A DNA stretch of 64,000 nt, taken from a virus. Below are positions 2,924-49,163 of this stretch, one piece after another. Each line of letters opens with the position of its first letter. Position 1 is the first letter of the stretch. Under the pieces are notes generated by a model. The model saw only the letters and a list, made by a program, of their open reading frames with translations, was not told the DNA's origin and ran no database searches. Both the position numbers and the translations under genes were made by a program. Location: positions 1 through 64,000 of IMG/VR virus record IMGVR_UViG_3300034418_011920. One strand, written 5' to 3'.

Positions 2924-2925
2924 TC

Positions 2926-3291
2926 ATGCCTATAGATTATAATAATAATCCTATACAAAGGTTTACAGAGGTAACAGAAACTGTTGCTATTAGTTCAGGC
3001 TCTTTGACATTAAATCTTAATAATGCTACAACTTTTTTAGTTAATAGAAATGCAAATATTACAAGTATAACTATAAGCAATCCTAACTCGTCTGGCACTT
3101 CTCATAGTTTCAGTATTATTTTTACTCCTAATGGATCTTCATATACCGTTAGCTGGCCTGCTAGTGTAAAATGGGCTGGCGGTTCAGCTCCTAGCTTAAC
3201 TACAACTTCGGGCAAAAAAGATATTTTACATTTTACAACCGTTGATGGAGGAACAAACTGGTATGGATTTGTTGGAGGTTTAAACTTCTAA
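2926..3291 (+). CDS. Beta-rich fibre tip/decoration-like protein
   Basis: The 121-residue protein is almost entirely beta-prone. It ends with WPASVKWAGG, then a Thr-rich turn, then DGGTNWYGFVGG. I know this combination from the C-terminal domains of many phage tail and head fibre proteins. It starts 2 nt after the previous stop, and its own stop overlaps the next start by one base. Here the domain stands as its own gene rather than at the end of a long fibre, so it may bind the collagen-like fibre or decorate the virion. There is no catalytic motif. Confidence 0.65.
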   Translation: MPIDYNNNPIQRFTEVTETVAISSGSLTLNLNNATTFLVNRNANITSITISNPNSSGTSHSFSIIFTPNGSSYTVSWPASVKWAGGSAPSLTTTSGKKDILHFTTVDGGTNWYGFVGGLNF

Positions 3292-4181: not shown

Positions 4182-4199
4182 TTTCTCAGAATATCAATG

Positions 4200-4224
4200 G
4201 TGTATTAAAGTATATAAAATACAC
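4200..4224 (+). promoter_or_regulatory. Candidate late promoter/operator motif with dyad
   Basis: In the 62-nt gap before the connector genes, gtgtatt and aatacac form a 7-bp dyad around an AT-rich centre (agtatata). A similar GTGTAT-plus-AGTAT/TATA string recurs in the gaps at 6972 and 10403. No sigma-70 -35/-10 pair is seen. A phage-specific promoter or RNA hairpin is possible. Confidence 0.3.
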
Positions 4225-4243
4225 ACAAAAGAAAGGTCAATAT

Positions 4244-4777
4244 ATGTACTGGGAAATCGAAATTCCAATTATTATCAGATCTCTCATTAATGATTTGGGA
4301 GCAACGCCCACATATAGTGACGATAGAATTTTACAACTTTCTGTAGTCGCTGCTAATTATGTAACAAAAGAAGTTAATCTTTCAAAAGAATACAATGTCG
4401 ATATAATAAATGTCGATATTATTCCGGATCCAAGCGAAAATTCTACCAGAGATACAGACTTTATTAGTTTTATCGCTCTTAAATCAGCTTGTCTTTTAGA
4501 TCAAAGTACTTTCAGAACAAAAGCTGCCCTAGAAGGAATAAAGACTTCGCTCGGCTCTGCTAATATTAGTGTCGCTGGAAATTTAGCTGGATATAAAACT
4601 CTTCTCGAAATGGGGCCATGCAAACTATATGAACAATTAGTAATGGATCATAATATAGGAAACGCTACAGCTGTTAGGGCTATTCTTAGTCCGTTTGTTG
4701 GTAATGATTTTGATCCTAGAGCATTATCTAGAGGTTACTATGGAATAGGTCCATATGGCAATGATATTTACGGGTAA
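4244..4777 (+). CDS. Probable head-tail connector (adaptor-type) protein
   Basis: The 177-residue protein is mostly helical in its first 120 residues and has a flexible Gly/Tyr/Pro-rich tail (RGYYGIGPYGNDIYG). Length, helicity and position suit the adaptor family that joins portal and tail: it is the first of four small genes before the tail tube. No sequence motif proves this. The ATG follows an aaagg ribosome binding site and a possible regulatory dyad in the preceding gap. It is read as the start of the neck/tail operon. Confidence 0.5.
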   Translation: MYWEIEIPIIIRSLINDLGATPTYSDDRILQLSVVAANYVTKEVNLSKEYNVDIINVDIIPDPSENSTRDTDFISFIALKSACLLDQSTFRTKAALEGIKTSLGSANISVAGNLAGYKTLLEMGPCKLYEQLVMDHNIGNATAVRAILSPFVGNDFDPRALSRGYYGIGPYGNDIYG

Positions 4778-9225: not shown

Positions 9226-9513
9226 ATGGATGAAGACCAAGAGAATATTCTAAGAAAAAGAATACAAACAACCATGATTGGTGCATTACACGAATTCGAA
9301 AAAAACTTTGGATATTTATGGGGGCAAGATAAATCAGAAGACGAAGAACTTTCGGATAAAGAAGACAGGTTTTTAGACATTTGGGAAGAAACAAGAAATA
9401 GAATTCTGAATAATGGTAATAATCAATTGAGAAAAGCCATATCAGAAATAAATAAGATAAAAGGAAAAACTAAATATAGTTACAAGTTTTACAGAAAGGG
9501 CGACAATGAGTAG
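9226..9513 (+). CDS. Small acidic helical protein, tail assembly region
   Basis: The 95-residue protein starts just after the previous stop with an aaaggag ribosome binding site. It overlaps the next gene by 8 nt. It is helical and acidic in the middle (KSEDEELSDKED) with a basic C-terminus. Position next to the tape measure gene suggests a chaperone or scaffold role. No family is recognised. Confidence 0.55.
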   Translation: MDEDQENILRKRIQTTMIGALHEFEKNFGYLWGQDKSEDEELSDKEDRFLDIWEETRNRILNNGNNQLRKAISEINKIKGKTKYSYKFYRKGDNE

Positions 9514-10387
9514 AAAATTTAAAGTCAAAGATGTGGAATTACAAGTAGTTTCTCCGTCAGCAGCGGACAACAGAGAAGCGAATAAGGTTTACAATCAGGC
9601 CTTTAACGATGCTCTAAAGTCTAAAGCTATTGTCAGGGCAAGACTAGACGATATTCTAAAAGAACAAGGCTTATGGGACGACGCCAAGCAAGCGGAGTAC
9701 AATACTCTACAAGCCAAATTACTAGAATCCGAAAGACAACTCAAAAAAGGTGGCATCACCCTAGCCACAGCTAAGGAAATAGCTTTACAAATGAAGAGGG
9801 ACAGAGAAACTCTTCGTGAACTTATTAGTGATAGAACCAGTCTCGATAACCATACGGCAGAAGGACAGGCGGATAATGCTAAGTTTAATTATTTGGTATA
9901 TGCTTGTACTGCATATGGAGATAATCCATCTAAGAAATATTTTGCGTCTTATGATGATTATCAAAAGAGATCCTCAGAACTAGTAGCAATTATGGCCGCT
10001 CAACATGTTGCTAATTTTGTTTATGGTCTAGAAGATGATTATGAGTCTAAGCTTCCAGAGAATAAGTTTTTGAAGGACTATCGCTTTGTTGATGATTCGG
10101 GAAGACTTGTTAATAAAGAAGGAAAATATGTAGACACCGAAGGAAGACTTATTGATAAGAACGGAAGATATATCGATGAAGAAGGTAATTTTATTGATAA
10201 GCAAGGGAATAGAGTTGACGAAGAAGGAGAATATATTGTTGAATTTACTCCATTCTTAGACGACGATGGTAAGCCTGTTACTCTTGCGTCTGACGAACCA
10301 GAAGAAGAGTCAGAAGTGGTTGAAGAAAAACCGAAGAAGGCTAGAAAAACTGCTAAAAAAGCGGTTGAAAAAGCGTCTGCGGAATAA
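9506..10387 (+). CDS. Tail-region protein with seven tandem heptads and a basic tail
   Basis: The 293-residue protein has a helical N-terminal domain (about residues 1-195). Seven perfect-length 7-residue repeats follow (residues 198-246; for example EGKYVDT, EGRLIDK, NGRYIDE). Then comes an acidic linker and a Lys/Ala-rich end (KPKKARKTAKKAVEKA) resembling histone H1 tails. The repeats (G at position 2, aromatic/aliphatic at 4-5, D at 6) could form a small beta-solenoid. It is the last gene before the tape measure gene, so it may be a tape-measure chaperone. The basic tail could bind DNA or the acidic regions of neighbours. Function is inferred from position only. Confidence 0.55.
   Translation: MSRKFKVKDVELQVVSPSAADNREANKVYNQAFNDALKSKAIVRARLDDILKEQGLWDDAKQAEYNTLQAKLLESERQLKKGGITLATAKEIALQMKRDRETLRELISDRTSLDNHTAEGQADNAKFNYLVYACTAYGDNPSKKYFASYDDYQKRSSELVAIMAAQHVANFVYGLEDDYESKLPENKFLKDYRFVDDSGRLVNKEGKYVDTEGRLIDKNGRYIDEEGNFIDKQGNRVDEEGEYIVEFTPFLDDDGKPVTLASDEPEEESEVVEEKPKKARKTAKKAVEKASAE
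10097..10243 (+). repeat. Seven tandem 21-nt (heptapeptide) repeats
   Basis: Seven consecutive 21-nt units encode SGRLVNK, EGKYVDT, EGRLIDK, NGRYIDE, EGNFIDK, QGNRVDE and EGEYIVE. Glycine 2 is invariant, an acidic residue or Asn/Gln usually precedes it, and Asp dominates position 6. Confidence 0.85.
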
Positions 10388-10481: not shown

Positions 10482-13400
10482 ATGGCAACACCTTTTAACT
10501 TAACCGCTCAAATTAATCTTCGTGGACCAAACAATATTAAACCTATTGTTGGTCAGATTAAGAAGCAGCTTGGTTCTATTAATGCAGATGTCAATGTTAA
10601 ATTGGCCAAGGGAGCTCCAAAATCTATAGCTAGTGTAACTAAAAATCTCAAGCTAATGAATGCGGAGTTCCAAAAGGCTAACGCTAATGCCAAGACTTTA
10701 TCAGCCACAATATCAACTCTTGGTGCTAACTTTAGTTCTTTAGCTAGGTCATCTGTTCAGGTAGCTAGTGTTAATACAAAAGTAGCAAGTACTTTATCTG
10801 GAATGACATCTGCTGGTTTAGATTCATCAGATGCTATGAATAAACTTGGTAGAGAGGTTTTTAACACTGGTAAAAGGATTGCTATTCTCAGTACTCTTGT
10901 TACTCCATTGGTTAATGTTTTTAGAAATGCCACCTCATCTGCTGTTGAGTTTAATGACCAAATGAGAAGGCTACAACAAGTTGTTGGTGGAACAGGCGGA
11001 ATTGTTACGAGTATTTCTAATGAGATCACAAGATTATCTACAACTTTAGGTGTCGCTAGCTCTGATTTGGCTCAGGTATCTGTTACTTTGGCTCAGGCAG
11101 GTTTTACCGCCTCCGAAACACAAAGGTCTCTTGAGGCTTTAGCAAAAACAAATCTTGCTCCTACATTTAAAAATATTCAACAAACCACAGAGGGTGCAAT
11201 TGCTGCCCTTAGACAGTTTGAACTTAGTGCTGGCGATCTAGAATCGGCTCTTGGTTCTATAAATGCCGTAGCGGCTAAATTCGCTGTTGAATCATCAGAT
11301 ATTATTGCTGCTATCCAAAGAACTGGTGGTGTGTTTGCGTCTGCGAGTAAAGGCGTAAGTCAGGGAACCGATGCTCTAAATGAATTCATCGCTGTATTTA
11401 CAAGCGTTCGTGCTACTACTCGTGAGAGCGCCGAGACCATTGCTACTGGTTTAAGAACGATATTTACCAGAATTCAACGTGGTAGCACGATTAACTATCT
11501 TAAAGAGTTTGGTGTTGAGCTACAAAATGCTCAGGGGCAGTTCGTTGGTGCGTATGAGGCTATCAGGAGACTCTCAGAAGGATTAAAAGACTTAGATCCT
11601 AGAGATGTTAGATTTAGTAAGATTGTAGAAGAGCTTGGTGGATTCCGTCAGATTGGTAAAGTTATTCCGTTACTACAACAATTCACAACAGCACAACAAG
11701 CACTCAATATCGCCCAGAGTGGACAAGGCTCATTAACCAAAGACGCTATTGCCGCACAAAAATCTTATGCTGTTCAGATTACAAGAGTAAGAGAAGAATT
11801 CAACGCTCTTATTCGTGATTTTAGTGAAAATACCGTATTTAAAAATATTGCCGGTGCTTTTCTTAGTATAACTAAAAATGTAATTACTATAGGTAGAGCA
11901 TTGGCCCCTATCGGCGCAGCTTTTGCTACAGCTTTCGCCATAACAAACTTCAAAGCTATCACTAACTTTTTTGATGGAATAGTTAAAAGTGTAACAGGAT
12001 TATTTAATACAAAAGATAAGGGTGGAGTTCTTTCACAATTAGGAAGTTTAACCGGCGGCGGGAATATAACCGTTACTGCCAAAAATGAAAAAGTAACTGC
12101 TGCTATTGCTGTAAATACTACAGCATTAAATGCAAATACAAAATCATTGGACAATCTAACTTCTGCTATTAATGGCCTTAAAGCTGGAGGAACTACATTT
12201 AATAAGGGTGGTAGAGTACAGGCTTTCGCTTCTGGTGGTGTTGTTCCGGGTCAAGGAAACCGAGATACTGTTCCGGCAATGCTGACTCCTGGCGAATTTG
12301 TGATTCGTAAGAAAGCTGTTGAAACTATTGGGGCTGGTAATTTACAGAAGATGAATAAATATAGTTGGGGTGGAAAAGTTAAAACATTGGCGAGTGAATA
12401 TACAAGCATACAAGATATTGATAACTATGAACAATTTGAAGATGATATTGTTAGGGATAGATCAAAATTTATTAGAGTAAAACCAACAGATGAAGATAAA
12501 GAAACATTTAAAAACATTAAAGCTTTCAGTAACGCTAGTAGATTTGAGAAATTTGTTGGGGAAAAATATAGTTTAGGGAATCCAGCAAAAGGACGGTTTG
12601 ATTATTTAGATTTTCCTGATAGTAGATCAGAAGCAAAATTTTTGCCTCTAGGCGAGACATATAGCAATTCCGAAAAAGGAAACACCCCTAAATCCATAGC
12701 TGCTAAAAATTTCCTATTTGAAAACAGCGCCTATAGACCCAATAGAAAAAATAAATCAGTTAAACAAATAGAGACTGTTAGCTTAACAGGGCCAGTAGAC
12801 ACATATTGGGCAAATCCTAAAGATTTTTATAATCTTGGTGGATATATTAAAAAATACGGCATTGGTGGAGGAATATTAGCAACCGATACTGTTGGTGCCG
12901 CTATTATGGAAGAAGCAGGAAATCTTACTCCTACCATAATCTCAGGCGGTGAAATTATTAGCAGTACTCTTAAAGATAGAAAGTTGAAAGAAGACGAACT
13001 TTCTAACATGGAAAAAAGATTGCAGGCTATTTTTGGTAATAGAAGCTATAATTTAGTTAGACAAGGATTAGATGGAGCTTTAGGAGCTAATGTCGGCGGC
13101 GCTATTAATAACAGAATAATAGAGATGATGAATAATCTTGGAGCAGATTTAGATTTCCCTGGCATAGCAGCAGGAGCCGGCGATAACTTCTTAAGCACAT
13201 TAAATGATAGTGTTAAGGGTGGTATTTTTGAATCCGTGCTAAATACTATTAAAAACAGCGGGATATATCAAGTCGCTCAAAGCTCTTCTGAGAAAAATGA
13301 CTATTTTGATTTTAGAGACGGATTAGGGGAAGCTTCTAAATGGTTTCCAAGTTTGAAGGATATAGCTTTTGTAGACGCTAAAAAATCCTTAGATGCTGCT

Positions 13401-16400
13401 CGTCCTGGTTCCATTGCTAGAAAAATAGGCAACGAAGCATTAAGAGAAGCTGGTTCGATGAGTTTGGAACAATTGTCTAAGATGGCAGAGGAGATACAAT
13501 CGACATCAGGTATTCAGGATGTATTACTTAATGCTATAACACAAGATTTTGGTTCTGGTGCTTATAGTAGAGGAATGATATTACCACTTATTGGCGAAGG
13601 AAAAGAATCAGAAAACCTTTCTGTTGCTGAAAAACTAAAAGCAATTTATGAAAGATTAGGACTATCCCCACAGAAAGGTAACAGTGTTCTTCGAAAACTT
13701 TTTGGCACAGCAACTGGGAAAAAATGGGAAGGAAAAGCCGTATCGCTAGCTAATAGATTAAACTTTGGAGGATTTGTTCAAAAATTCGCAGAAGGAGGAG
13801 AGCCGGATCCAAATGCTCCTAGTGCTAAACAATTAGGTTTTATCAAAAGCCTTGTTGGAAAATTCTATTCTGATGAAGCTCAAATAGAACAATTTATGTC
13901 TACCGTTTATGATAAACAAACTGCTAGCAAACAAATACAACAATTACAAAATGCTAAAAAATGGACTGGATTATTTAAAGCTTTATTAGCAGAAGGCAAA
14001 AGTGTAGGTTTCTTGGGAGGAAGACCTTTTGCTTATTATAGTAGAATATCTACTGCTAGTTCTTCTTTTGATGAGCTTAAAGATGAAGAAACAATTAGAG
14101 CATTCTTAGAAAGAGGAAAACTTGCTTTTGGTAGCTATACAAACAATACCAATACATTTGCACAAAGAAGATACAACAGATCAAAAGGCTATCGTCGTGC
14201 TCTTGGCGGGTTCATACAAAAATTCGCAGAAGGAGGAGAACCTAAGAAAGAAAAAGATTTTGGTCAAATACTTCTTAGCGGTTCGCCTGAGAGAATAGAA
14301 GCTAGATATAACCCAAATGATACGAGAACAGGATCTGTTAACGCTAAAAAATGGAAAGATGGCATATGGACTGTTGGTTTGTCAATGGCTAGTAAAGGAT
14401 ATGGACCTAGACTATATGATACTGTAATGGAAGCTGTTACGGAAAAGGGAGGCATGCTAACATCAGACAGAGCTACCGTTAGCGGTGCTGCTAGATCTGT
14501 TTGGGACTACTACTTTAGGAATAGATCAGATGTATCTAAGACTCCTCTACCTAGAGATGCTTGGACTGGCAACTACGAAATGATTGACGAAAAACTTAGA
14601 GGACCAGAAGATACTTGGCCTCCTAAAAACGATCCTGCCTGGGCATTACAAACAGGATATAGAAAATCTCCATCTTTAATTAATGACCCAAACTCTGTTA
14701 AGAGAATTAAGTCAAGTCAATCATCTGCTAAAACTGCTTTAGATTATTTTGCTGCTCGCAGCCTATTTGCAGATGGCGGGTTAATACAAAAATTTGCTGA
14801 AGGAGGATCAGCAGAAGACACTGTTCCTGCACTATTAACTCCAGGCGAATTTGTTATCAATAAGAAAGCTGCTTCCAGAATAGGTTCTGCAAATCTCAAT
14901 AAGATGAACAAAGCCGATAAAATTTCTGGATTTAACAAGGGCGGTCCAGTTGGCATGGTTCAGAGATTTGCTGCTGGCGGCGGTGTTCAGGATGTGCTGG
15001 CTCAACAATCGGGAATGTCTACTTCTAAGTTTATGAAAGAACTGGGCAAAGAGCTAGACTCAGTAGCATTAGACATTATAAAATCACTCCAACAAACAAA
15101 GAAATCTTTTGTAGTAAGTATTGGTAAAGCAACAAACGCTTTTGCTGCCGGATTAGACCCAGCAGAAGTAGAAGCCTCACTGCAAGAAGCTGTAGCAGGA
15201 TTAGCGGAAGCTGGCGGAATTTCTGACACTGGAGTAATTCAAAAAGCTGCTAGTGATCTTTTCGCTGGAATACAAGCTGGATTACCATTAGATCAAATTC
15301 AAGCAAAAAGTGCAGAGCTTACACAAATTACTGCTCGACAAATTACAACAACTGATGCTCTCGACAGAGCAATGCAAAGACTATCATTAGAGACAGGTAT
15401 AGCTGCTGACGAATTAAATAAAATTAAAGATACACAAAGACTCGAAGCTAAACAATTCTTCGAGGGCGATATTGGTAAACAATTTGATGGTGTTATCACC
15501 AGAACATTCCCCAAGACATTTAAGGGTCTTCTAGATAATAGTTTTGGTAAATTAACAGCCAACATAACCAAAGCTTTTCCTGCAACAGCTATTACTGGCA
15601 GTTTGGTTTCTCTTAAAGGAAGCTTAGATTATTTTGGTAGTGATATTCAAAAGCTTGGTGTAGATTTAGGCCTTTTACCAGAAGATGTTAAAAATTCATT
15701 ATCTACATTAGGTGGTGTGCTTGGTGGAGCTGGTCAAGGAGCAGCTATAGGCCAGGCTTTAGGAGGATTATTGGGTCCTGCTGGGGCTTTAGGAGGAGCT
15801 ATTGTAGGCGCAGTAGCTGGCGGCATTAAAGGATATTTTGATGCTCAATCTAGAATAGAACAAGAAAGAATAAGAAAAGAAAGTGTAAAATCACAAAAAC
15901 GATTTGAAGATAATTTAGCTAGAGCACAAAATGAACCCTTAGCAGAGGATAGGCAGGAAGCTCTAGAAAGAGCTATGAGTGAATTATCAGCTAGAAATAG
16001 AGAACTAGCAGAACAGATGGGTAAACTCGGAGGAGGTACAGTTTACGGTGGTGATCAAATAAGACTACCAAGAACTGAAGAGGCAGCCACTGGTTTATCT
16101 GATAGAATCAAAAAGTTTGGCGAGAATATGCAAAGGCTTGGAGAAATGAGACTTCAAACCGAATCAGCAGATTCTCTTAATGAAAGACAAGACAAAATAG
16201 ACGAAGTATTAGATTCTGCCACTACTAAAACTCAGCATTTATTTGAAGTGTTTGGACAGACAGCAGAAGCCCAAGCAGCATTGGCAACTCTAGGGGCAAA
16301 CGCAACAGAAGAGCAAAAAGCAGCACTCTTAGAAAATTTAGCACTATCGAGATATCTAGCAGAACAGGAGTCATTAGGAGTTAGTGCTAGAGATGCATTA

Positions 16401-19400
16401 GCAACATGGAACGCTAATATAGCAGACAACCTTAATGCTACTCTAAGATCTACACTAATAGAAAAACAAGCAGCAATTGCTACACAAAGAGCAGCTTTGG
16501 CCCAAGAAAATTATAACAAACAATTAGAGTCTTTCACATTCAAAATGGATGCTGTCAGCCAAGCTCTTAATATCTTCAATAATGAAATGGAGTTTTCATT
16601 AGCTAGGCTAGATAATCTAAACGCTGGTCTTGCGGGAGAAGGTCCACAAGGAATTACTCTGCGTAATAGAACAAGAGATATTATTGAAAATCCTTTAGCC
16701 TTTAGTGTTGAAGAATTCCAACAGGCGGCAGAGAGAGTTGCAGGACAAGGAGAAGCTGGACAAGAAATATCCAATCTAGCAACAGCTTCTAGAATAATTA
16801 ACCAAGTCCTAAGACCTGCATTATCTAATACTGAAGATAGAGATGTTAGTGGAGTCAGAGAAGCTGTTCAAGCTCAGATTGACGAACTTTTCCCCGGTCA
16901 AGGTCCTGGGGCTGGTGTTCCAGCAGATTTACAACAAGCGATAGACGAAGTATTAGATCAATCTATTAGGGGCATTACCGAACAAGCAACACAGAGACAA
17001 GGAGAAGGTCAAGATTTTGCGAATATAACCGATAGTGTTGATCAGTTTTCTCGAGGAGCAGCAATTGCAGAAGAAACGCTTAAACAATTATCGGAACAGA
17101 GAGAGAAAGAATTTCAACTATTTTTAGATCTAGAAGAAAGAAGAGCAGATGCTATTCTTAAACAAGTTAATATTACACAGCAATTAGTAAAGACACAAGC
17201 AGATTTCAATCAGCAGCTTAGAGATGCAATTGGAGAATTTTCTTCACTAGAAGAAATGAATGCTGGATTTAATGCTCAGATACAACAATTAACCGGAGGA
17301 GAAACAGATCCAACCGCAATATCTGACAATATTATTGATTTGGAAAGACAACAAAGAGAAGCTAGTGATAGAATCAATCAATTGATGAGAGACCCTACTA
17401 ATGGAGAGCCAGATAACAGACGAGCGCAAGAAGACCTAGCAAGAGAAATTATAAACCTACAAGTTGAACAAAAGAAATATATACAAGCTCTTGAATTAAT
17501 TGCAAATAGCAACGAGAAAGTTTCTAATGCTTTCAAGAAGCTTGCAGACGAACAAAAGAAGGCCGAAACAGGGAAAGATTTATTGTCTATCCTGTCTAGC
17601 GGTAGTTTAGAAGACATTCTCAAATTGAGGACAGACATAGTTGGTGTGCAGCAAGCTCTAGCTGGAAATACAGGTTTCTTTGCTGCTAATCCTTTGGCTT
17701 CACAATTAAATCCACAAATCCTCGATCTGCTACAGCTATCTCAGGAAGAAAGAAGGAGAGCGGAAGGAGTTGCAATTCAAGGCGGTATTGGGGGAAGGTT
17801 TGGAGGCGCTGCTGCTGGTATGGCTGGTCAGTTCTTTGCTATGATGGAAACTGGGATTAATAATGCCACTCAACAAGTACAAGCAGCTAGTGCAGAACAA
17901 TTAAGAGCCCTCATAGAGCTTAGAAGAATTGCAGAACTTCAAGAAAATAATGTTATTAAACAGCAAGAAAATATTGACATTCTTTTGAGAGGATTAAACG
18001 ATGAATTGGGTGGAGGAGACGCTAATGAAGCACAAGAGAAATTTATTAAAGCTTTAGAAGACTTGGGTATTAATCTTCCAAAAGATATCACAAATAGAGT
18101 TTTAGAAGGATTAAGCTTAGTAAAAATGGGAATTCAGGGAATTCTTCTTGGTGACGATCTCAGGAATGGTTATCTTGGAATCGTTGAAAATGCATATGCA
18201 AATATTACAGAAAAATTAAATGCCATAGCTGATAGAATGAACGAGGCTGCTCCACGAGCGAATCAACCACCCAATGCGGATAGTCCACCACTTGGAAATC
18301 CAGGAAACCAAGCAGGTGGTGGTCGTGGTGGTCGTGGTGATGATTGGTTGCCAGATTGGTTACCAGATTGGTGGCCTGTATTTGATTTTCGTTCTCGTGG
18401 TGGTCCGATCTATGCCAAGAATGGTATGGCTGTTGGGCCATTTAAACCAAGAGGAAAAGATACTGTTCCGGCTATGAGCACAAATGGTCAACCATATATG
18501 CTTCAGCCAGGAGAGTTTATTGTTAATAAAGAAGCATATCAGAAGAATAAGGGGCTTGTTGAAGCTATCAACGGAGGAATGAATGTAGGTGGGTTTGGCG
18601 GTACTATGTATGCTGCTGCTGGTGGAATAGTACAAATGGGCGGTATTCAAGTTCCACAATGGTACTTGGATGCTAATGCTGCAATGAGACAACAAGCACA
18701 AGCTGTTGCTGCATATAACCAAAACTATGCGATGAGTGGACAATACAGAAGGGATGCTATTGCTAATTTAGGACAAGGAACAAATGTAGATTATGCTCAA
18801 AGAAATAGCATGGCTATGGCGGATAATATGCAAAGAACAGCAGAAGGCGCAAATACCATCGCTGAAGCTGCTACTAGCGATGGGGCTCAGTCTGGAGCTC
18901 AAACAGGCGGAATGTTTGGCGATATCTTTGGTAGAATGCTTGGAGGAAAAAATCCTGCCGCACAAATAGGCGGTCAAATTGGTGGAGCTATGATTGGCGG
19001 CATAATGGGAGCTTTCGACAATCTTGCTGGTGGGGCTTTATCAAGTATTGGACAAAGAGTTGGGTCTGTGTTTGCTGGTCAAACAGCCGAACAACCTGCG
19101 ACACCAACACCACAACCAGCCCAAGCGACTCCGTTACCACAACCTACTCCGGATGTTCAAGCAGCTCCGATAGACTTGGGTGCTGTGCCTTCTGGTCCTG
19201 GTGGTGGTGCTATGTCTATTCCTCCAGAACCAACAAGAAGACCAAGAGTGATAGATGGAAGTAGGCCAACACCAGAAACTCAACCAATACCAGCGCCTCC
19301 TCCACCACAACCAGTACCAGAAGTAAGCGCAGATAGACCACGAGCTAATCAAGCTCCATTAGCGGAAGAACAACCCGTACCAGCACCAACAGCTCCGGGT

Positions 19401-22400
19401 CAAAATGGATTTTCTGGTTTGGGTAGCGACACAGCAAGAGACGCGGCTATAAGAGCAGCAAAAGCAGCAGGAAGACCTCTAACAGGAGAAGAAGCCGCTT
19501 ATTATGAGCAAAGAGAAGCCCAAAGAAACGAAGCTGATCCAGAAAGAGCACAAAGAGGAGCATACGCAAGAAGAAGAGCAGCAGATCGTGCAACTTATGA
19601 GGGCCAGCCTAAAGATAGAGTAAATCCAGACACACCACCTTCTGGTAGAGGTCAAGGCGTTTGGGATGCTTATACTCGTTATGTGACTTCTGCCGGTGAA
19701 ACCAATTTTGTTCAACCAAATGAAGAAGGTTCCCAAACTGCACCATTATTTGATAGACAGGGCTATGAGGCATACTTAGCTTCTCGCTATGGTACTCAAG
19801 GTACTCTTGGTGGGGCTTCTGCTCATCCTCGATACGAAGAGGACATGGCAACATTTGATTATTATAGACAACAAAGAGAAAATGAGATAGCGGCAGATAA
19901 AAAACCCGGAAAATTATTTTCGTCAGATATGACTGTTCCGGAAAAAATAAAAGCTACAGACGCAGCCGGAGCACGCGAAGCGTTAAAGATACAAGAAGCC
20001 AGAAGAGAAGCTTCTGAAAAATCACTGTTCGGAGATGCTATACAAACAGATCCTCAATTAACACGAGCAGAGAATATCGCTCAAGCTAATACTGCTATTC
20101 AAGATCTACAAAATAGAGCTCCAATATCCGACAATTTAGATGATAATGAAATTAATAAGAGAAAATATACTGCTGGACAAGCTAGGGGATATATTTTAGA
20201 CGCAAAGGATAATACTGGACAATTTGAACTTAAAGATGCAAAATTTAATGGTTTTGATGAAGATGGAAATATTTTATTAGAGAAACCTTCTGAATATAGA
20301 GATATTGATGGTAAGAATACTCCAGTATATACCGGAGATATTAAACCCGTTAATCCAGACAAATTAGACTCTTTGACTCTTGATAGAATAAACAGAGCAC
20401 AACAAAAGGCTAATGACGAATATGAAAAAAATGTTACTCTTCCAGCGCAAGAGGAAAAGGATAGAGCAATAGAGAGAGCTCGGCAGCGTGAGGATTTTAA
20501 CCGCAGAGCAGAAGCGAGACGCACCCAAAAACAAAAAGAAAAGGAAGAGGCTGCAACAGCACAAGCATCAATAGATACAGAATATGATCGCACAGAAAGA
20601 CAATTAACAGATTTGGCTAATACAGAAAGAGCTAATGCCCAAAGAAATGAAAAACAAAGAGACGATCAGCTTCTTTATAGATTGGGTACTGGGACTCTTG
20701 GTGGTTCTGAGGATACTTTAAGACAAGCATCGCAAGCATCCGAAGAAAAAGTAGCTAAAGCTGAAGCAGCACTAGCTAGTTTAAATCAATCAAGAAAAAC
20801 TAGAGAAAGATTAAAACAAAAAGGTTTGATTTTTACTGGTGCTTCTGATACTGAATTTGATTTAACAGGAACTGGTGTTGAACCTTATACCGATATTGGT
20901 ACGGGAGATAAGCCAGTTCAGGTATACAGATCAGCTGATGGTCAGATATATTCAAGTAAAAAAGAGGCTTTAGAAGGTTTAGGATATGTTAGTAAAAGAG
21001 GATACTTAACAGAGGAAGGTAAAAAGTTCTATACCAACAGATCTATTGATCAACAAGTTACTGCGAATAACACATACAAAGATCTTTTGGGCATAGATCC
21101 TAATACTGGATTCTTACAAGAAGGACAGATAGCAGAAATTCAAAGACAAAACGAAGGATTTATGTCTGGCGTAGAAGCTGGGGCTGGTGTTGTTGAAACT
21201 GGTGTTGAAACTCTTGCAGCCGTAGCTACACTTGGAGGAAGTGCTGCTGTTACCACAGTAGGAAGAAGTGCATTAAGTGCTGGTGTTAGAGGAGCAGCAA
21301 GAACCGGATTATTTGCTGCTGGAGAAACAGCTGCAATTTCTAGTGTTTTAGAAGGCGAAAAAGTTAATGCTGGAAGACAGACAGTAGGAGATGCAATAGG
21401 TAATGTTGGAACTAAAGCAGCTTTTGCGGGATTAACAGGTGGTGTTGGAGGTGGTATTGGAGGTGTCGCAGCTAGGGGGGCAGCTAGAAAAGCAAGACTA
21501 GACAAGTTACTTGATGAACGCAAAACTACTCAAGGTGTTATAGATAGAATTACAAGATCAGGAACTACTTTTGAAAATACAAAATTTGTTAACAAAGATT
21601 TTAATGTATTTAGCCCAAGACAAGCCAATAATATCAGTCAGAAAGCTACCAAAAGGGCCGCAGAAAAATCTGGAGATATAAATGAGATTATTGATTTGCG
21701 AAATAATCCAAGGGCTGCGTTTGAACTTTACGATGGTGCTACTGGAGAAATTCCAGATATTAAAATAAAAAAATTCAAAGAAGCATCCGATATTGCTTCG
21801 ACAAGACAATCCAGAAAATCCGCTTCTCAATTTGATGCTCAAGGAGGAAAAGCTTTTGCGACTCCAGATGAAACAGCATCGGCTGCTGCTTTAAAACCTA
21901 GCAAAGCCACCCAAACAAAAATCAAGCAACTTGAAGCGAACAGGACTCAGGCTGAAGATTTAAGACGAACATTTAAGGTCGATAGCAATCCTAAATCTGC
22001 TGCTGCGACTAAGCCTAAGCCAGCTACTGCGACTAAGCCTAAACCAGCTGTTGCGTCAGCTGATCAGAAAACTGCTACGCAGATATTATCAGAAGAGTAT
22101 ACAGCTCCGATTTCAAATAGACAGAGAAGAGCAGAAGCGTTTCCTGGAGTTGCTGCTCCTCCGCCTAAGCCAACTGTCGCTACGCCTACGCCTAAGCCAA
22201 CTGTCGCTACGCCTACGCCTAAGCCAACTGTTGCTGCGCCTAAACCTAAGCCAACTGTTGCTACGCCTAAACCTAAGCCAACTGTTGCTACGCCTGAACC
22301 TATAGATCCTAAAAAAGAATTTTCAACATTTATGGATGAATGGAATAAAGAACGTAAAATCGGCACACCATTTTTAAATGAAAAATTTGATAGTTGGAAA

Positions 22401-23540
22401 TACAAACCTTTAGCTCAAACATACGATGAACTTATCGAGAATATGGGTGGTGCGAAAGGATTAAGCTCAAGCAAAATAGAACAATTAAAAGAACTAGCAA
22501 ATGCTGATTCATCAGTTATAGAAACTGCAGATGTGGCATTTAGATCATGGAATCCTACTATTAGAGAAGCGAGAAATGCACCGAGTGGTTTCTGGGATTG
22601 GTCTAGAGGAAACGATCCTAAGAGTTTGTCAAGAATAATTCAAGATCCTGATTTGAAAGATTATGGAAATTTACGCAGCAAGTATAACTTTATTAAAGAA
22701 TATAACGAACGTATAGGAAGAAATCAAAACAAGAGTGGGTTAATCCAAGGGACAGCAACACCAACTCCGACTCCAAAGCCTCAAACAGCTGCTGTGTCAC
22801 AAACTCCAGCAATGCCTATCCGTCCACCGAAACCAAATATTCAAAACGATCCTATAGGATATCAAGACTATATGGTTGGGCCATACAAAGGCACTCCTTT
22901 GGAGGCTGAAGCTAGACAATTATTTAAGAAACAAACCGAAGCATACAATAGACTTAATGCTAGTACAACGAGAGACCAAGCAAGAAAACAAGTAAATGAA
23001 CAACTTAAAGCATTGCGTCAATTAGGACAAGAACAAGGTATTCCGGGGTTAAGTCAAGGAGGACCAATTTATGCAAGCAAAGGAATGTTTGTTCCAAAAG
23101 GACCAGATACTATCCCAGCGATGCTTGCTCCAAATGAATTTGTAGTAAACGGTCAGTCAGCAATAAATAATTTGGATCTCCTAAAGCAAATCAATGCTTC
23201 TAGAGGTCCACTCTATATGAATCAAGGTGGTATCGTAAGTGGTAGTAGTCCAGCACAAGCAGAAAATTATTACGGCACTCTTGGCGGAAATAACCAAACC
23301 AATCAAATGGGTAATAACTTTGCTGGTTATGTTGAGCAACTTCAAAACTTCCAATTCCCCACTATTCCAGAAAGAATCGAAATGGTTGGAAGTCATACTG
23401 TTGATGTTAATGTTAATGGTGCTGGTGCATTTGAATCACTACAAGGCGGTATCATGAATATGATTAATAGTGAAATTGGTAAGACAATGGATGGCTTGTG
23501 GAATCAATCAAATGGCGCCGTAGGAAGAGCAAGTAGATAG
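10482..23540 (+). CDS. Tape measure protein (4352 aa)
   Basis: This protein sets tail length and is threaded through the tail tube. Residues about 140-480 match the phage tape-measure core (RTGGVFASASKG, ATTRESAETIATGLRTIF) and end in a hydrophobic helix. Four copies of a D-T-(V/I)-P-A-M...P-(G/N)-E-F-V element lie near residues 595, 1446, 2660 and 4208, usually after GGxV or GGPIYA. Three QKFAEGG linkers lie near 1100, 1245 and 1435, flanking inserted domains; the one at about 1258-1403 resembles a GNAT-like phage domain. Glycine-zipper hydrophobic segments occur near 1740-1787, 2823-2867 and 3560-3675. Long coiled-coil stretches, Pro-rich linkers (2870-2975) and a KPTVATPTP repeat are also present. 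The C-terminus (IPERIEMVGSHTVDV) is typical of the family. At about 0.15 nm per residue the upper bound on tail length is about 650 nm. No muralytic motif is evident. Confidence 0.95.
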   Translation: MATPFNLTAQINLRGPNNIKPIVGQIKKQLGSINADVNVKLAKGAPKSIASVTKNLKLMNAEFQKANANAKTLSATISTLGANFSSLARSSVQVASVNTKVASTLSGMTSAGLDSSDAMNKLGREVFNTGKRIAILSTLVTPLVNVFRNATSSAVEFNDQMRRLQQVVGGTGGIVTSISNEITRLSTTLGVASSDLAQVSVTLAQAGFTASETQRSLEALAKTNLAPTFKNIQQTTEGAIAALRQFELSAGDLESALGSINAVAAKFAVESSDIIAAIQRTGGVFASASKGVSQGTDALNEFIAVFTSVRATTRESAETIATGLRTIFTRIQRGSTINYLKEFGVELQNAQGQFVGAYEAIRRLSEGLKDLDPRDVRFSKIVEELGGFRQIGKVIPLLQQFTTAQQALNIAQSGQGSLTKDAIAAQKSYAVQITRVREEFNALIRDFSENTVFKNIAGAFLSITKNVITIGRALAPIGAAFATAFAITNFKAITNFFDGIVKSVTGLFNTKDKGGVLSQLGSLTGGGNITVTAKNEKVTAAIAVNTTALNANTKSLDNLTSAINGLKAGGTTFNKGGRVQAFASGGVVPGQGNRDTVPAMLTPGEFVIRKKAVETIGAGNLQKMNKYSWGGKVKTLASEYTSIQDIDNYEQFEDDIVRDRSKFIRVKPTDEDKETFKNIKAFSNASRFEKFVGEKYSLGNPAKGRFDYLDFPDSRSEAKFLPLGETYSNSEKGNTPKSIAAKNFLFENSAYRPNRKNKSVKQIETVSLTGPVDTYWANPKDFYNLGGYIKKYGIGGGILATDTVGAAIMEEAGNLTPTIISGGEIISSTLKDRKLKEDELSNMEKRLQAIFGNRSYNLVRQGLDGALGANVGGAINNRIIEMMNNLGADLDFPGIAAGAGDNFLSTLNDSVKGGIFESVLNTIKNSGIYQVAQSSSEKNDYFDFRDGLGEASKWFPSLKDIAFVDAKKSLDAARPGSIARKIGNEALREAGSMSLEQLSKMAEEIQSTSGIQDVLLNAITQDFGSGAYSRGMILPLIGEGKESENLSVAEKLKAIYERLGLSPQKGNSVLRKLFGTATGKKWEGKAVSLANRLNFGGFVQKFAEGGEPDPNAPSAKQLGFIKSLVGKFYSDEAQIEQFMSTVYDKQTASKQIQQLQNAKKWTGLFKALLAEGKSVGFLGGRPFAYYSRISTASSSFDELKDEETIRAFLERGKLAFGSYTNNTNTFAQRRYNRSKGYRRALGGFIQKFAEGGEPKKEKDFGQILLSGSPERIEARYNPNDTRTGSVNAKKWKDGIWTVGLSMASKGYGPRLYDTVMEAVTEKGGMLTSDRATVSGAARSVWDYYFRNRSDVSKTPLPRDAWTGNYEMIDEKLRGPEDTWPPKNDPAWALQTGYRKSPSLINDPNSVKRIKSSQSSAKTALDYFAARSLFADGGLIQKFAEGGSAEDTVPALLTPGEFVINKKAASRIGSANLNKMNKADKISGFNKGGPVGMVQRFAAGGGVQDVLAQQSGMSTSKFMKELGKELDSVALDIIKSLQQTKKSFVVSIGKATNAFAAGLDPAEVEASLQEAVAGLAEAGGISDTGVIQKAASDLFAGIQAGLPLDQIQAKSAELTQITARQITTTDALDRAMQRLSLETGIAADELNKIKDTQRLEAKQFFEGDIGKQFDGVITRTFPKTFKGLLDNSFGKLTANITKAFPATAITGSLVSLKGSLDYFGSDIQKLGVDLGLLPEDVKNSLSTLGGVLGGAGQGAAIGQALGGLLGPAGALGGAIVGAVAGGIKGYFDAQSRIEQERIRKESVKSQKRFEDNLARAQNEPLAEDRQEALERAMSELSARNRELAEQMGKLGGGTVYGGDQIRLPRTEEAATGLSDRIKKFGENMQRLGEMRLQTESADSLNERQDKIDEVLDSATTKTQHLFEVFGQTAEAQAALATLGANATEEQKAALLENLALSRYLAEQESLGVSARDALATWNANIADNLNATLRSTLIEKQAAIATQRAALAQENYNKQLESFTFKMDAVSQALNIFNNEMEFSLARLDNLNAGLAGEGPQGITLRNRTRDIIENPLAFSVEEFQQAAERVAGQGEAGQEISNLATASRIINQVLRPALSNTEDRDVSGVREAVQAQIDELFPGQGPGAGVPADLQQAIDEVLDQSIRGITEQATQRQGEGQDFANITDSVDQFSRGAAIAEETLKQLSEQREKEFQLFLDLEERRADAILKQVNITQQLVKTQADFNQQLRDAIGEFSSLEEMNAGFNAQIQQLTGGETDPTAISDNIIDLERQQREASDRINQLMRDPTNGEPDNRRAQEDLAREIINLQVEQKKYIQALELIANSNEKVSNAFKKLADEQKKAETGKDLLSILSSGSLEDILKLRTDIVGVQQALAGNTGFFAANPLASQLNPQILDLLQLSQEERRRAEGVAIQGGIGGRFGGAAAGMAGQFFAMMETGINNATQQVQAASAEQLRALIELRRIAELQENNVIKQQENIDILLRGLNDELGGGDANEAQEKFIKALEDLGINLPKDITNRVLEGLSLVKMGIQGILLGDDLRNGYLGIVENAYANITEKLNAIADRMNEAAPRANQPPNADSPPLGNPGNQAGGGRGGRGDDWLPDWLPDWWPVFDFRSRGGPIYAKNGMAVGPFKPRGKDTVPAMSTNGQPYMLQPGEFIVNKEAYQKNKGLVEAINGGMNVGGFGGTMYAAAGGIVQMGGIQVPQWYLDANAAMRQQAQAVAAYNQNYAMSGQYRRDAIANLGQGTNVDYAQRNSMAMADNMQRTAEGANTIAEAATSDGAQSGAQTGGMFGDIFGRMLGGKNPAAQIGGQIGGAMIGGIMGAFDNLAGGALSSIGQRVGSVFAGQTAEQPATPTPQPAQATPLPQPTPDVQAAPIDLGAVPSGPGGGAMSIPPEPTRRPRVIDGSRPTPETQPIPAPPPPQPVPEVSADRPRANQAPLAEEQPVPAPTAPGQNGFSGLGSDTARDAAIRAAKAAGRPLTGEEAAYYEQREAQRNEADPERAQRGAYARRRAADRATYEGQPKDRVNPDTPPSGRGQGVWDAYTRYVTSAGETNFVQPNEEGSQTAPLFDRQGYEAYLASRYGTQGTLGGASAHPRYEEDMATFDYYRQQRENEIAADKKPGKLFSSDMTVPEKIKATDAAGAREALKIQEARREASEKSLFGDAIQTDPQLTRAENIAQANTAIQDLQNRAPISDNLDDNEINKRKYTAGQARGYILDAKDNTGQFELKDAKFNGFDEDGNILLEKPSEYRDIDGKNTPVYTGDIKPVNPDKLDSLTLDRINRAQQKANDEYEKNVTLPAQEEKDRAIERARQREDFNRRAEARRTQKQKEKEEAATAQASIDTEYDRTERQLTDLANTERANAQRNEKQRDDQLLYRLGTGTLGGSEDTLRQASQASEEKVAKAEAALASLNQSRKTRERLKQKGLIFTGASDTEFDLTGTGVEPYTDIGTGDKPVQVYRSADGQIYSSKKEALEGLGYVSKRGYLTEEGKKFYTNRSIDQQVTANNTYKDLLGIDPNTGFLQEGQIAEIQRQNEGFMSGVEAGAGVVETGVETLAAVATLGGSAAVTTVGRSALSAGVRGAARTGLFAAGETAAISSVLEGEKVNAGRQTVGDAIGNVGTKAAFAGLTGGVGGGIGGVAARGAARKARLDKLLDERKTTQGVIDRITRSGTTFENTKFVNKDFNVFSPRQANNISQKATKRAAEKSGDINEIIDLRNNPRAAFELYDGATGEIPDIKIKKFKEASDIASTRQSRKSASQFDAQGGKAFATPDETASAAALKPSKATQTKIKQLEANRTQAEDLRRTFKVDSNPKSAAATKPKPATATKPKPAVASADQKTATQILSEEYTAPISNRQRRAEAFPGVAAPPPKPTVATPTPKPTVATPTPKPTVAAPKPKPTVATPKPKPTVATPEPIDPKKEFSTFMDEWNKERKIGTPFLNEKFDSWKYKPLAQTYDELIENMGGAKGLSSSKIEQLKELANADSSVIETADVAFRSWNPTIREARNAPSGFWDWSRGNDPKSLSRIIQDPDLKDYGNLRSKYNFIKEYNERIGRNQNKSGLIQGTATPTPTPKPQTAAVSQTPAMPIRPPKPNIQNDPIGYQDYMVGPYKGTPLEAEARQLFKKQTEAYNRLNASTTRDQARKQVNEQLKALRQLGQEQGIPGLSQGGPIYASKGMFVPKGPDTIPAMLAPNEFVVNGQSAINNLDLLKQINASRGPLYMNQGGIVSGSSPAQAENYYGTLGGNNQTNQMGNNFAGYVEQLQNFQFPTIPERIEMVGSHTVDVNVNGAGAFESLQGGIMNMINSEIGKTMDGLWNQSNGAVGRASR
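22167..22301 (+). repeat. Five 27-nt repeats (KPTVATPTP) in the tape measure gene
   Basis: Five consecutive 27-nt units encode the nine-residue Pro/Lys-rich unit KPTVA(T/A)P(T/K/E)P. They are preceded by looser TKPKPA copies at about 22010-22050. They form an extended, disordered linker near residues 3896-3940. Confidence 0.85.
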
Positions 23541-23550: not shown

Positions 23551-25410
23551 ATGGAAAATAGTGCAGATTCAAAAATGAGAGTATATTATGGTCCAATCAC
23601 AAATGCCACATCTGTTGATGAGTTTGTTCTTTCACCTGCTCCACTTTTTACTATAAATACTGATCCAATTTATGTTGGTGAAAATATTATTGGTTCTGTT
23701 GAAAGAATTACTCTTACTGGATATTTAACTTCTATCAATCAAGCAAAAGAAGAAGCGGGAACAGATGGCTTGCCATATATAATGCAAAGAATAAGAGAAC
23801 TTAAATCTCTTTTTGGTCATAATGGATATACGCTTCTTGTAAAACAAGGTGGACAGGATCTAATTAAGGCTGTTGGGTCTAAAGTTGTAAGTTTTAACAT
23901 AGAGAGAACAGAGAATAATTGGGTTAATTATGCAACCTATACTGTGGAATTAGAGTTTGGGTCCATTTCTTATCTGGGTTGTGGTGGAGAAGAATTGGGT
24001 TGTGAGGATTTTGTTTTTGGTTTAGATGCTCTTGCTCCATATAACGATGGATTAGTAGATGTTAGCGATTATAGAATACGAAACTTTTCCGATTCTTGGT
24101 CTTTTGAACTTGGGGAAGAAATATATCAAAATATTGGAGATACAAACACTCCATATTCTTTATCTAATCAATACTTTACTTTAACATATACATTAGATGC
24201 AGAGGGTTATCATTATTACAATGCGAATGGACGATTAATTCCAGCGTGGGAACAAGCTAAGAATTTCTGTCAATATAGACTTTACCAACAACTCAATGAA
24301 GGTTTAATAGGAGCTAGTGTTGAGCCAGGAATTCTGGTTCTTAGAACAGAGGATCAAGATGGAACTTGCAACCCCGACGACGAAGCAAAGATAGACAAAT
24401 TATTTGAAGTAGACTCAACTAAATTTTCTCTTCTTGGAGATTTGGAAAGAGACAGAGAATATAAACCTTTTAATGAAACCATCGACACTACTGTATCAGA
24501 ATCTAATGGAACTTTTAGCTTATCATATACAGTATTAATAAAAAGAATTACGCCAAATGCTGTTTGGGAGAAAAATTCTAAAGTTTTACACACAATTACA
24601 AGATCAAAGAATATTTCTAATGATAATAAGGAAGAAACAGCGAGTATTTCTATTGATGGAAACATTCAGGGTTTAGTAGAGGGGGGATTAATCTTAAATC
24701 CGCAAGTTGTGCAACTTCAATCGCAAGGTCAACTTTTAATTGTTCCCGATAATGATGGGACAGGAAAATACCAAGCTGCTAAAGAAGCTTTGGATGAAAT
24801 TTATATAGTAGATCCAACCGATTCAAAGAACATAGATTTTGAACGCAATTTTAAAGAAAGAATTCTAGAAGCTACATATGAAGCATTGGGCGTTGATGAG
24901 GAAAGTGGGTTTACAGGCTTGCCTTCTGGGCCAAAAATTCAAACTATGAATATCAGTCATGATTTTTCTGGAGGATCAATTTCCTACCAGGCTAGTTTTG
25001 ATAGTAAAGATGTTACCTATGAACAAATATATTTTACAGAATTTACCATTACTCAACAAGATCCAGTAGAAGTAGTTGCTGAAATTGTTGTGCCAGGTAA
25101 AGCAGACGGAACTGTAGTTCAAAAGATGAACACAACAACACCAAGAACGATAAGTATCGCTATGAACGGTTTCATGCCACCAGATTATAGTGGTAATTTT
25201 GACTATTATTCAAATAAAGTTTGCAGTAGCGGTAATTTTATTCCTCATATGGATGAAATGTTTCCAGATAGAATTCTAGCAGATGACCCGAATAATATTA
25301 ATGACGATACACAAGTAGCCTTCTTAACTGCTGATTCTGAAAGTTTGAATCCGTTAGACGGCAGTTTTACTGCAACAAGGACATATACATACTATGATCA
25401 GAAAAGATAG
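23551..25410 (+). CDS. Distal tail protein, paralogue A
   Basis: The 619-residue protein follows the tape measure gene with a strong ribosome binding site (aggag). It is paralogous to the next gene. Both begin with a (V/M)xYGP strand. Both contain YT(L/I)DAEG...PAWEQAK(N/S)FCQ(Y/D)RL(Y/F) near residues 210-250. Both have an I(D/E)G(N/E)IQG(L/F)VEGGL(I/L) element and a 'NISHDFSGGSISY/NISKDYANGIISY' strand near the C-terminus. The place right after the tape measure fits distal tail or hub components. No enzyme motif is seen. Confidence 0.6.
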   Translation: MENSADSKMRVYYGPITNATSVDEFVLSPAPLFTINTDPIYVGENIIGSVERITLTGYLTSINQAKEEAGTDGLPYIMQRIRELKSLFGHNGYTLLVKQGGQDLIKAVGSKVVSFNIERTENNWVNYATYTVELEFGSISYLGCGGEELGCEDFVFGLDALAPYNDGLVDVSDYRIRNFSDSWSFELGEEIYQNIGDTNTPYSLSNQYFTLTYTLDAEGYHYYNANGRLIPAWEQAKNFCQYRLYQQLNEGLIGASVEPGILVLRTEDQDGTCNPDDEAKIDKLFEVDSTKFSLLGDLERDREYKPFNETIDTTVSESNGTFSLSYTVLIKRITPNAVWEKNSKVLHTITRSKNISNDNKEETASISIDGNIQGLVEGGLILNPQVVQLQSQGQLLIVPDNDGTGKYQAAKEALDEIYIVDPTDSKNIDFERNFKERILEATYEALGVDEESGFTGLPSGPKIQTMNISHDFSGGSISYQASFDSKDVTYEQIYFTEFTITQQDPVEVVAEIVVPGKADGTVVQKMNTTTPRTISIAMNGFMPPDYSGNFDYYSNKVCSSGNFIPHMDEMFPDRILADDPNNINDDTQVAFLTADSESLNPLDGSFTATRTYTYYDQKR

Positions 25411-25418: not shown

Positions 25419-27350
25419 ATGGCAGAACTAGCTGAAATTATGGTATTCTATGGTCCCGTTAAAGAAATCGGGGATGATCTAAGAAACGGAGTTGATGCTT
25501 CTGGTATATATCGACAATACAAACTGTCCCCATCTCCATTTATTAATATTAGCACCAGTATTAATTATGCTAATGATAATATAGTTGGATATAAGTATTC
25601 AATCGATATAGAAGGAACAGTTGTTCCGTCTGGAAATGTTCCGATTAGTCTTGCTAAGACAGCAGGAAATATCAGTGAACACAGAAAGAAACTTACTAGA
25701 TATGGTTCATATCTATTTGTTTATGATAATACCAATAGGACTGTGCTTCTAGAGGGACAAAATGGTCTTTTACAATCTTTAGCATATAATGAATCAAATA
25801 ATAACTGGCTAAAGTCTGTTCCATACAGAGCAACAATCGAATTTCAAGAATTAATTTTTAATGCAGAAGATGTGGATAAATGCTCAAGCGGAGGAGATAT
25901 AGGTGCGGACTCTTTGTCTAGAAACTTGATAGATAGAGATAAGTATAAAATTAAATCTTTTAACGACCAATGGTCAATATCAGCCGATGCTGAAACCTTA
26001 TATTCGGATATTAAGTATCTAGATACAAGCCAAGAGGGGTTTAGGCCAGCCTTTCTTAAAACAGATAATCTTACATATAATGTTAGATATACTATTGATG
26101 CGGAGGGTATGAATTATTCTAAATGGAACGGAACAGAAAATCTTGTTGTCCCAGCATGGGAACAGGCCAAGTCTTTTTGTCAAGATCGTTTATTTACTGA
26201 AGTGAAAAAGTTAGCGGAAAATATTTGCTATATCAATGCCAACACAGCTTGCGAAGCTACTTCTACTTTGGCGAATTTATACGGCGAGAGCCAGAAGGGT
26301 CTACTTTTTGAAGCAAATAAGTTTAAAATTTATAACGAGTCTGTTAGATGCGAAACATCGGAAGGAGCAGGATCTTTTTCGGCAGAATATTCTGCCATAC
26401 TAAAAATAGAAAGGCCAACAGAAAATGGTTTTTCTAATGAAGCTGTTAGGCATACATTTACAAAAAGTGTTCAAACAGAAAAGAACGGTATACAAAAATC
26501 TGCAACCAATGAAATCCTAGAAAATAAAGTTATCACTATAGAGGGAGAAATTCAAGGGTTTGTAGAAGGAGGACTTCTTTTTGCTCAGAACTCTGATTAT
26601 GAATTGCCACAAACAGGTTATTTGATAGTGCAAAGAACATCACAAAATGAGAAATATAACAATGCACTTCTTTTCGCTCAGAAATTCTTTGATAATGCAA
26701 ATATAGAAAAAGCTAAAGATATACATGAGAATTATAAAGGTCAATATGAATTTGGTTTAAGGCCAGAAGATTTTATGCAGGAAACTGGGGGGTTGACAGA
26801 TATTGAACATGCTAAACCAGAAACATTCAATATCAGCAAAGACTATGCCAATGGAATCATATCCTACTCTGCTAAATACAGTACTGGCAAAACAGGGGGA
26901 AGGCATAAGTATTCTAATACTTCTATTGAGATACAAAGGGGAGTTCCTGTGATAGCCACATTCCAGTTGCCTAATGGTGGATATATTACGGAATCTAATC
27001 CTAGTGGAGTGGGTGTTATTATTCAAGATATGGGCACAAAAACTAGAGATGTAATGAATATTACGATAGAAGGTAATGATCCAGATTCGAAATTGGGGTA
27101 TATAAGTATAGAAGATCCAGATTCTTATCTGAAAGTTTATAATTTTTTGGGTTCTGGTAATGGAAATTTTTATCTTCCCACAGATATTTCTTACCCATCA
27201 GGAAGCGTATTGACAGAAAGAACTAAAACGACTAATATATTAACAGGATCTTATAGCATTAAACTTGCTTATATTTTATGCACACCGGGATGTCCTATAC
27301 CTCCACCAACAGGGGCTACGGGATATATAGATAATACAGGAGATTATTGA
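25419..27350 (+). CDS. Distal tail protein, paralogue B
   Basis: The 643-residue protein is the tandem paralogue of the preceding gene, sharing its domain order and the PAWEQAKSFCQDRLF and EGEIQGFVEGGLL blocks at moderate identity. The duplication is old, since the DNA no longer aligns by eye. Two paralogues in series suggest a hetero-oligomeric ring or an internal symmetry change at the tail tip. The C-terminus is Pro/Gly-rich (CTPGCPIPPPTGATGY). The stop TGA overlaps the next gene's ATG (tgatg). Confidence 0.6.
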   Translation: MAELAEIMVFYGPVKEIGDDLRNGVDASGIYRQYKLSPSPFINISTSINYANDNIVGYKYSIDIEGTVVPSGNVPISLAKTAGNISEHRKKLTRYGSYLFVYDNTNRTVLLEGQNGLLQSLAYNESNNNWLKSVPYRATIEFQELIFNAEDVDKCSSGGDIGADSLSRNLIDRDKYKIKSFNDQWSISADAETLYSDIKYLDTSQEGFRPAFLKTDNLTYNVRYTIDAEGMNYSKWNGTENLVVPAWEQAKSFCQDRLFTEVKKLAENICYINANTACEATSTLANLYGESQKGLLFEANKFKIYNESVRCETSEGAGSFSAEYSAILKIERPTENGFSNEAVRHTFTKSVQTEKNGIQKSATNEILENKVITIEGEIQGFVEGGLLFAQNSDYELPQTGYLIVQRTSQNEKYNNALLFAQKFFDNANIEKAKDIHENYKGQYEFGLRPEDFMQETGGLTDIEHAKPETFNISKDYANGIISYSAKYSTGKTGGRHKYSNTSIEIQRGVPVIATFQLPNGGYITESNPSGVGVIIQDMGTKTRDVMNITIEGNDPDSKLGYISIEDPDSYLKVYNFLGSGNGNFYLPTDISYPSGSVLTERTKTTNILTGSYSIKLAYILCTPGCPIPPPTGATGYIDNTGDY

Positions 27351-48033: not shown

Positions 48034-48129
48034 TTAATCTTTATTCATCCTCTCCCCTAAAATAATCATATATACTGCAATTACTGATAAGGGGAGAAGA
48101 TAGAATATAAAAAACAGGAATAATCCCAT
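48034..48129 (-). CDS. 31-aa single-TM peptide coupled to the pseudopilin gene
   Basis: The ATG overlaps the TAA of the DUF1559 gene (taatg), a classic coupling arrangement. The product starts [20 protein letters not shown], is hydrophobic through about residue 25 and ends in a short charged tail (GERMNKD). It is a probable inner-membrane peptide. It has no independent ribosome binding site. It ends about 70 nt before the terminator. It is too short for family assignment. A partner of the pseudopilin is an inference. Confidence 0.5.
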   Translation of the reverse strand: MGLFLFFIFYLLPLSVIAVYMIILGERMNKD

Positions 48130-49112: not shown

Positions 49113-49163
49113 AATTAATCCTTTTTTTAATGTTAGGTGGGTAAAACATAGCCTGTTAACGAT

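Follow-up and report, generated by a model that had tools for sequence, protein, structure and literature searches.

We consider it probable that a widespread clade of uncultivated phages uses a giant modular ruler to build a long, probably non-contractile tail, a ruler along which one motif (motif M) is repeated, inserts are exchanged and cargo is carried. The protein analysed here has 4352 aa and is encoded in the window, that is, the whole stretch of DNA under study; the window takes up 64000 bases of an IMG/VR virus record that is classed as linear and 65668 bases long. As established for tape measure proteins elsewhere, oligomers occupy the tail tube and set its length; the protein exits before the DNA and helps to form a channel.

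Identity and length range of the tape measure protein

Firstly, we assessed the identity of the protein. Its gene, the longest ORF within the 64-kb window, is a single ORF that starts with ATG and runs without an internal stop. The N-terminus matches the Pfam family PhageMin_Tail (PF10145; E 1.4e-21, above the cut-off) as well as PHROG tape measure families 28, 4704, 167, 1533 and others. On the strength of these matches, the protein is a phage tail tape measure protein, and the original prediction of a tape measure of 4352 residues in one open frame is borne out. The coordinates of the features discussed below are collected in Table 1.

Table 1. Features of the tape measure gene and its upstream neighbours in the window
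Feature	Residues	Position	Strand	Basis or remark
Candidate tail tube protein, 372 aa		7029..8147	+	position only
Upstream neighbour, 293 aa, possible tail assembly chaperone		9506..10387	+	position only
Tape measure protein gene, 4352 aa		10482..23540	+	open frame; Pfam/PHROG tape measure matches
PhageMin_Tail domain	180-384	11019..11633	+	within N-terminal core, residues 1-640
Motif M copy 1, FASGGVVPGQGNRDTVPAMLTPGEFVIRKKAVETIGAGNLQKMNKY	576-633	12207..12380	+	iterated profile; full-length match
Unit A	640-790	12399..12851	+	identity 86% in L031, 36% in L008; few relatives
Unit B, PD-(D/E)XK-like residue pattern	795-1095	12864..13766	+	E917, D943, D965-x-K967
Unit C	1100-1250	13779..14231	+	~40% identical in L012, L046, L055
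Unit D, acetyltransferase (GNAT)-like	1253-1430	14238..14771	+	in 18/81 tape measures
Motif M copy 2	1432-1490	14775..14951	+	profile
Most hydrophobic, glycine-zipper-like stretch	1756-1782	15747..15827	+	Kyte-Doolittle scan; candidate membrane segment
Conserved block	2000-2390	16479..17651	+	covered by about half of relatives; likely tape
Motif M copy 3	2640-2705	18399..18596	+	profile
1453-residue segment without relatives, Pro/Thr/Lys-rich stretches	2722-4174	18645..23003	+	
Motif M copy 4	4193-4252	23058..23237	+	profile

Secondly, we placed the protein among its relatives. With the first 500 residues as the query, we retrieved 101 IMG/VR relatives, mostly at 50-55% identity; fetching their missing ends yielded 81 proteins, 51 of which are distinct and complete. 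These 51 tape measures span 1958 to 7574 aa with a median of 4355, and the window protein sits at the median of its own family. The earlier description of the protein as much longer than typical tape measures (about 700-2000 residues) therefore holds against well-known phages but not against its own family: by this comparison an exceptional length is not supported, and 4352 aa is ordinary for the virus group. Nineteen of the 50 relatives exceed the 5002-aa tape measure of the cultured Thermus phage P23-45, itself longer than the window protein (PMC10770324); in the literature searched, no tape measure beyond 5002 residues was found, that of P23-45 being the longest published one. At the upper end, L053 (with L103; 7574 aa), L076 (with L114; 6899 aa) and L017 (with L087; 6196 aa) are real outliers.

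Motif M, exchangeable segments and the first bay

Conservation along the protein is blockwise. Residues 1-640 are found in nearly all 50 relatives at ~50% identity, and further short conserved blocks lie at about residues 1400-1510, 2000-2390, 2630-2710 and 4150-4250, the remainder being common to few relatives or none. Of the variation in total length across the family, ~78% is contributed by the variable segments between the conserved blocks (slope 0.78). For residues 3001-4099, no IMG/VR relative was found. Within the tape measure gene, positions 22149-22295 form a 27-bp tandem repeat that encodes a PKPTVATPT unit.

Motif M, of 58 positions (consensus GGLIYAFAKGGLVPGSGGTDTVPAMLTPGEFVINKKATKKIGLGLLKKINKYDKGGKV), was recovered from three different window seeds. 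An iterated profile gave 328 matches in 80 of the 81 tape measures; complete proteins carry 2-9 copies, whose number rises with protein length (Spearman 0.75). The fourth copy in the window protein ends 100 residues before the C-terminus, a position like that of the one partial copy in lambda gpH (residues 751-784 of 853). Other PHROG tape measure families match the motif mostly towards their C-terminal ends, and it is also present in tape measures of cultured Gordonia, Mycobacterium, Paracoccus and other phages; in the P23-45 tape measure it was not found. Since the motif is common in tape measures and elsewhere occurs once near the C-terminus, it appears to have been multiplied in this family. 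Among the loci examined, motif M and unit B are confined to tape measure frames. Judged from the sequences compared, the repeated motif together with the modular build is what sets this tape measure family apart; neither the motif nor the insert modules figured in the original prediction.

We propose that the motif, usually found once near the C-terminus, would have been copied along the tape measure, and that the stretches between its copies would be swapped among phages. Where a long local alignment ends, motif M is nearby in 34% of cases; random placement would give 12%. This statistic is indicative only, because the relatives are not independent. If the segments between M copies are exchanged, tail length and cargo would therefore change together: with cargo and ruler in one protein, a change of cargo would be a change of tail length.

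The segment between the first two M copies, here called the first bay, measures 108-2184 residues (median 839) in the family and covers residues 634-1431 in the window protein. Its units follow an almost constant order, in which M1 is succeeded by unit B and, in some proteins, unit D stands right before M2; further units are added variably. In the window protein the bay holds four units (A to D), each of which has different relatives, with edges at motif M or at GG-x-x-QKFAEGG linkers.

With an iterated profile, unit B was detected in 68 of the 81 tape measures, after one or two M copies; the core used as a single-sequence query gave no relatives, and the profile alone found them. Asp943 is present in 55 of 55 aligned rows, Glu917 in 50, an acidic residue at 965 (D/E) in 52 and Lys967 in 41. 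These conserved E, D and (D/E)xK residues form the pattern of the PD-(D/E)XK nuclease superfamily. The AlphaFold model of the unit (mean pLDDT 70, mostly helical) had no meaningful Foldseek match, and a restriction-endonuclease-like fold drew no support from AlphaFold, Foldseek, a PDB profile search or Pfam. Because AlphaFold and Foldseek did not confirm the fold, we call unit B nuclease-like in residue pattern only. The literature searched held no paper on nuclease domains in tape measures.

The core of the unit D model reached a pLDDT of 70-95, and its best Foldseek matches were mostly GNAT proteins at a probability of 0.94-0.99 and weak E-values of 0.02-0.3, with the strand and helix order of GNAT; the unit had no Pfam match and was not found in cultured phages. 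Its conserved KGYGPRLYD stretch resembles the CoA loop, and acetyl-CoA binding and transfer would be putative activities of the unit. In the relative L029, the first bay holds an ADP-ribosyltransferase (PF03496; 2e-10, above the Pfam cut-off) at about residues 1139-1283 of the tape measure. Stretches similar to it occur in L036, L034 and L021, and weak EF-hand-like matches were seen in variable inserts of several relatives' tape measures.

We infer that the inserts would count as part of the tape and that the host would be the site of action of the enzyme-like units: the first bay, with its nuclease-like and acetyltransferase-like units, would pass into the cell together with the DNA. In lambda, the C-terminus of gpH lies at the tip (PMC10721106); were the orientation the same here, the first bay would point towards the head and leave late, as the N-terminal polymerase of P23-45 would. 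The 5002-aa gp96 of that phage, whose tail exceeds 800 nm, is likewise a tape measure of giant size and carries an enzyme domain in its N-terminal third; in contrast to the window protein, the enzyme is an RNA polymerase, with residues 327-1124 as the shortest active fragment, and bays set by a repeated motif are absent. Lambda gpH shares the tape measure function and the position of motif M near the C-terminus, but has a single copy, is five times shorter and lacks enzyme inserts. In gp17 of mycobacteriophage TM4 and other tape measures with hydrolase motifs, enzymatic domains likewise lie in the tape and count for length (PMC1796659), whereas TM4 gp17 holds a single wall-degrading (peptidoglycan hydrolase) motif and the window protein holds several units, none recognised as a wall hydrolase. 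Polyvalent proteins (PMC5512222) also join several host-directed enzyme domains in one polypeptide, ADP-ribosyltransferase domains among them, and are thought to be delivered with DNA; the paper on them does not mention tape measure proteins, and in the present family the tail ruler would be its own carrier.

The inserts might instead be evolutionary filler: whatever soluble sequence made the tape longer would be tolerated, and the enzyme-like domains would have no role in infection. We think this unlikely, though it deserves weight: motif 3 of TM4 is dispensable for viability, the (D/E)xK lysine is lost in 14 of the 55 rows of unit B, and the long segment after the third M copy of the window protein has no relatives. 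Against filler speak the invariance of Asp943 and the near-constancy of Glu917 in proteins otherwise little alike there, the intact ADP-ribosyltransferase match of L029 and the almost constant placement of units B and D.

Tail type and predicted tail length

We searched for the tail-sheath family PF04984, which was absent from this record and from 24 related records and was detected in control genomes, a result to be read with the provisos that the records may be fragments and that a diverged sheath could escape the search. Since no sheath family occurs in the 25 records, the tail is likely long and non-contractile (siphovirus), as is that of P23-45; a contractile tail was rejected on the same ground.

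Four systems give the scaling between protein and tail. Lambda has 853 aa for a 150 nm tail (0.176 nm per residue); TM4 lost ~20 nm of tail when an enzymatic motif of 114 aa was deleted (0.175 nm per residue; PMC1796659); in the Bacillus siphovirus Tsamsa, likened here by description for its long tape measure and long flexible tail, 3123 aa correspond to 440 nm (0.141 nm per residue; PMC3903500); and P23-45 reaches at least 0.16 nm per residue. With 0.14-0.18 nm per residue (PMC1796659, PMC3903500, PMC9022992), the predicted tail would measure ~610-765 nm if the whole protein acts as tape, and the originally predicted ~650 nm, likewise a value from the gene alone, falls within the range given by these systems. 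The Pro-rich stretches of residues 2722-4174 are unlikely to be helical, hence the rise per residue there is uncertain. We know of no imaged member of this tape measure family.

The original prediction had also advised subtracting globular inserts from the length, which is doubtful and not justified by default, because in TM4 it was the loss of an enzymatic motif that shortened the tail, by the predicted amount, and P23-45 scales at full length. If, on the contrary, only the conserved core were tape, with the inserts folded at the head end or outside, the tail would measure ~200-450 nm. Such a division would be consistent with the 1197 of 4352 residues common to at least 25 of the 50 relatives, with a family core of ~1450 residues, and with a folded domain larger than ~4 nm being too big for the tube lumen. 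We nevertheless judge it improbable: the TM4 tail shrank with its motif, the 5002-aa protein of P23-45, despite its fused RNA polymerase, still goes with a tail of more than 800 nm, and in TP901-1 tail length tracks the size of the tape measure across many deletions (PMC5099701). Together, these data suggest that enzymatic inserts count towards tail length.

Proteolytic processing could remove part of the 4352-aa protein; if cleavage took place during assembly and the finished virion no longer held the inserts, whether released or lost, the gene length would overstate the ruler. Lambda gpH is processed, according to a passage of PMC1796659 that cites Tsui and Hendrix 1983; the Tsamsa tape measure runs as two bands of 280 and 100 kDa, and processing is suspected (PMC3903500); and the lambda copy of motif M lies in the C-terminal region. 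On the other hand, the model of the lambda virion tail tip includes residues 818-842 of gpH (PMC10721106), so that at least some of the C-terminus stays. We give processing on this scale only a small chance.

Beyond the modular ruler itself, we put forward a bolder reading, tentatively and at rather less than even odds: the tape measure would be a modular delivery vehicle, in which motif M joins exchangeable cargo enzymes (nuclease-like, acetyltransferase-like and ADP-ribosyltransferase) that each lengthen the tail, the members of 6000-7600 residues exceeding 1 micrometre. The present tail record is ~1 micrometre, and, if the reading is true, the tails of these members would be the longest known. 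For L053, the scaling predicts a tail of ~1.1-1.3 micrometres. If cargo and ruler are one protein, the family offers a clean natural experiment for the ruler rule, with half-identical N-termini and a fourfold range of 1958-7574 residues, a range that would extend above the record; tape measures may be an overlooked source of the proteins that are first into the host cell.

The source record and neighbouring genes

An assembly or frame artefact joining several genes into one, suggested by the unusual ORF length and the single metagenome record, was ruled out and has a negligible chance, given dozens of independent contigs whose single frames are about as long or longer and share the motif order, an even GC3 and, at both ORF ends, the same conserved blocks as in relatives. 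The GC3 is flat over the whole ORF (0.20-0.24), so that the tape measure gene bears no sign of a chimeric join. No end-to-end repeat was found in the record when the window ends were compared, and the record is therefore probably incomplete, that is, a fragment; contigs of relatives reach 238 kb.

The genes upstream of the tape measure gene are shared throughout the family. The 293-aa gene at 9506 is present in all 80 related loci, at a median identity of 59%, the gene at 8187 in 79 and the 372-aa gene at 7029 in 76; none of the three matched any known family. Tail fibre genes stand at the window start, where the one at positions 1-1408 is collagen-like and contains 45-bp tandem repeats. Directly downstream of the tape measure gene, the products of 23551-25410 and 25419-27350 (619 and 643 aa) look related to one another by eye and belong to no family; they match the same place in some relatives at ~31% identity. 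The two giants beyond them, 27347-32086 and 32088-39203 (1579 and 2371 aa), have no PHROG match and are probably tail tip or fibre proteins.

Farther along the window, the DNA polymerase appears as two ORFs, 45409-47010 and 50496-52376, which correspond to the N- and C-terminal halves of phrog_405; several genes lie between them, and the split is possibly an intron or intein remnant. An HNH-type endonuclease gene (40683-41468) lies in the same block, and a pilin-like match (phrog_3433) was found at 48129-49202 in the minus-strand replication block.
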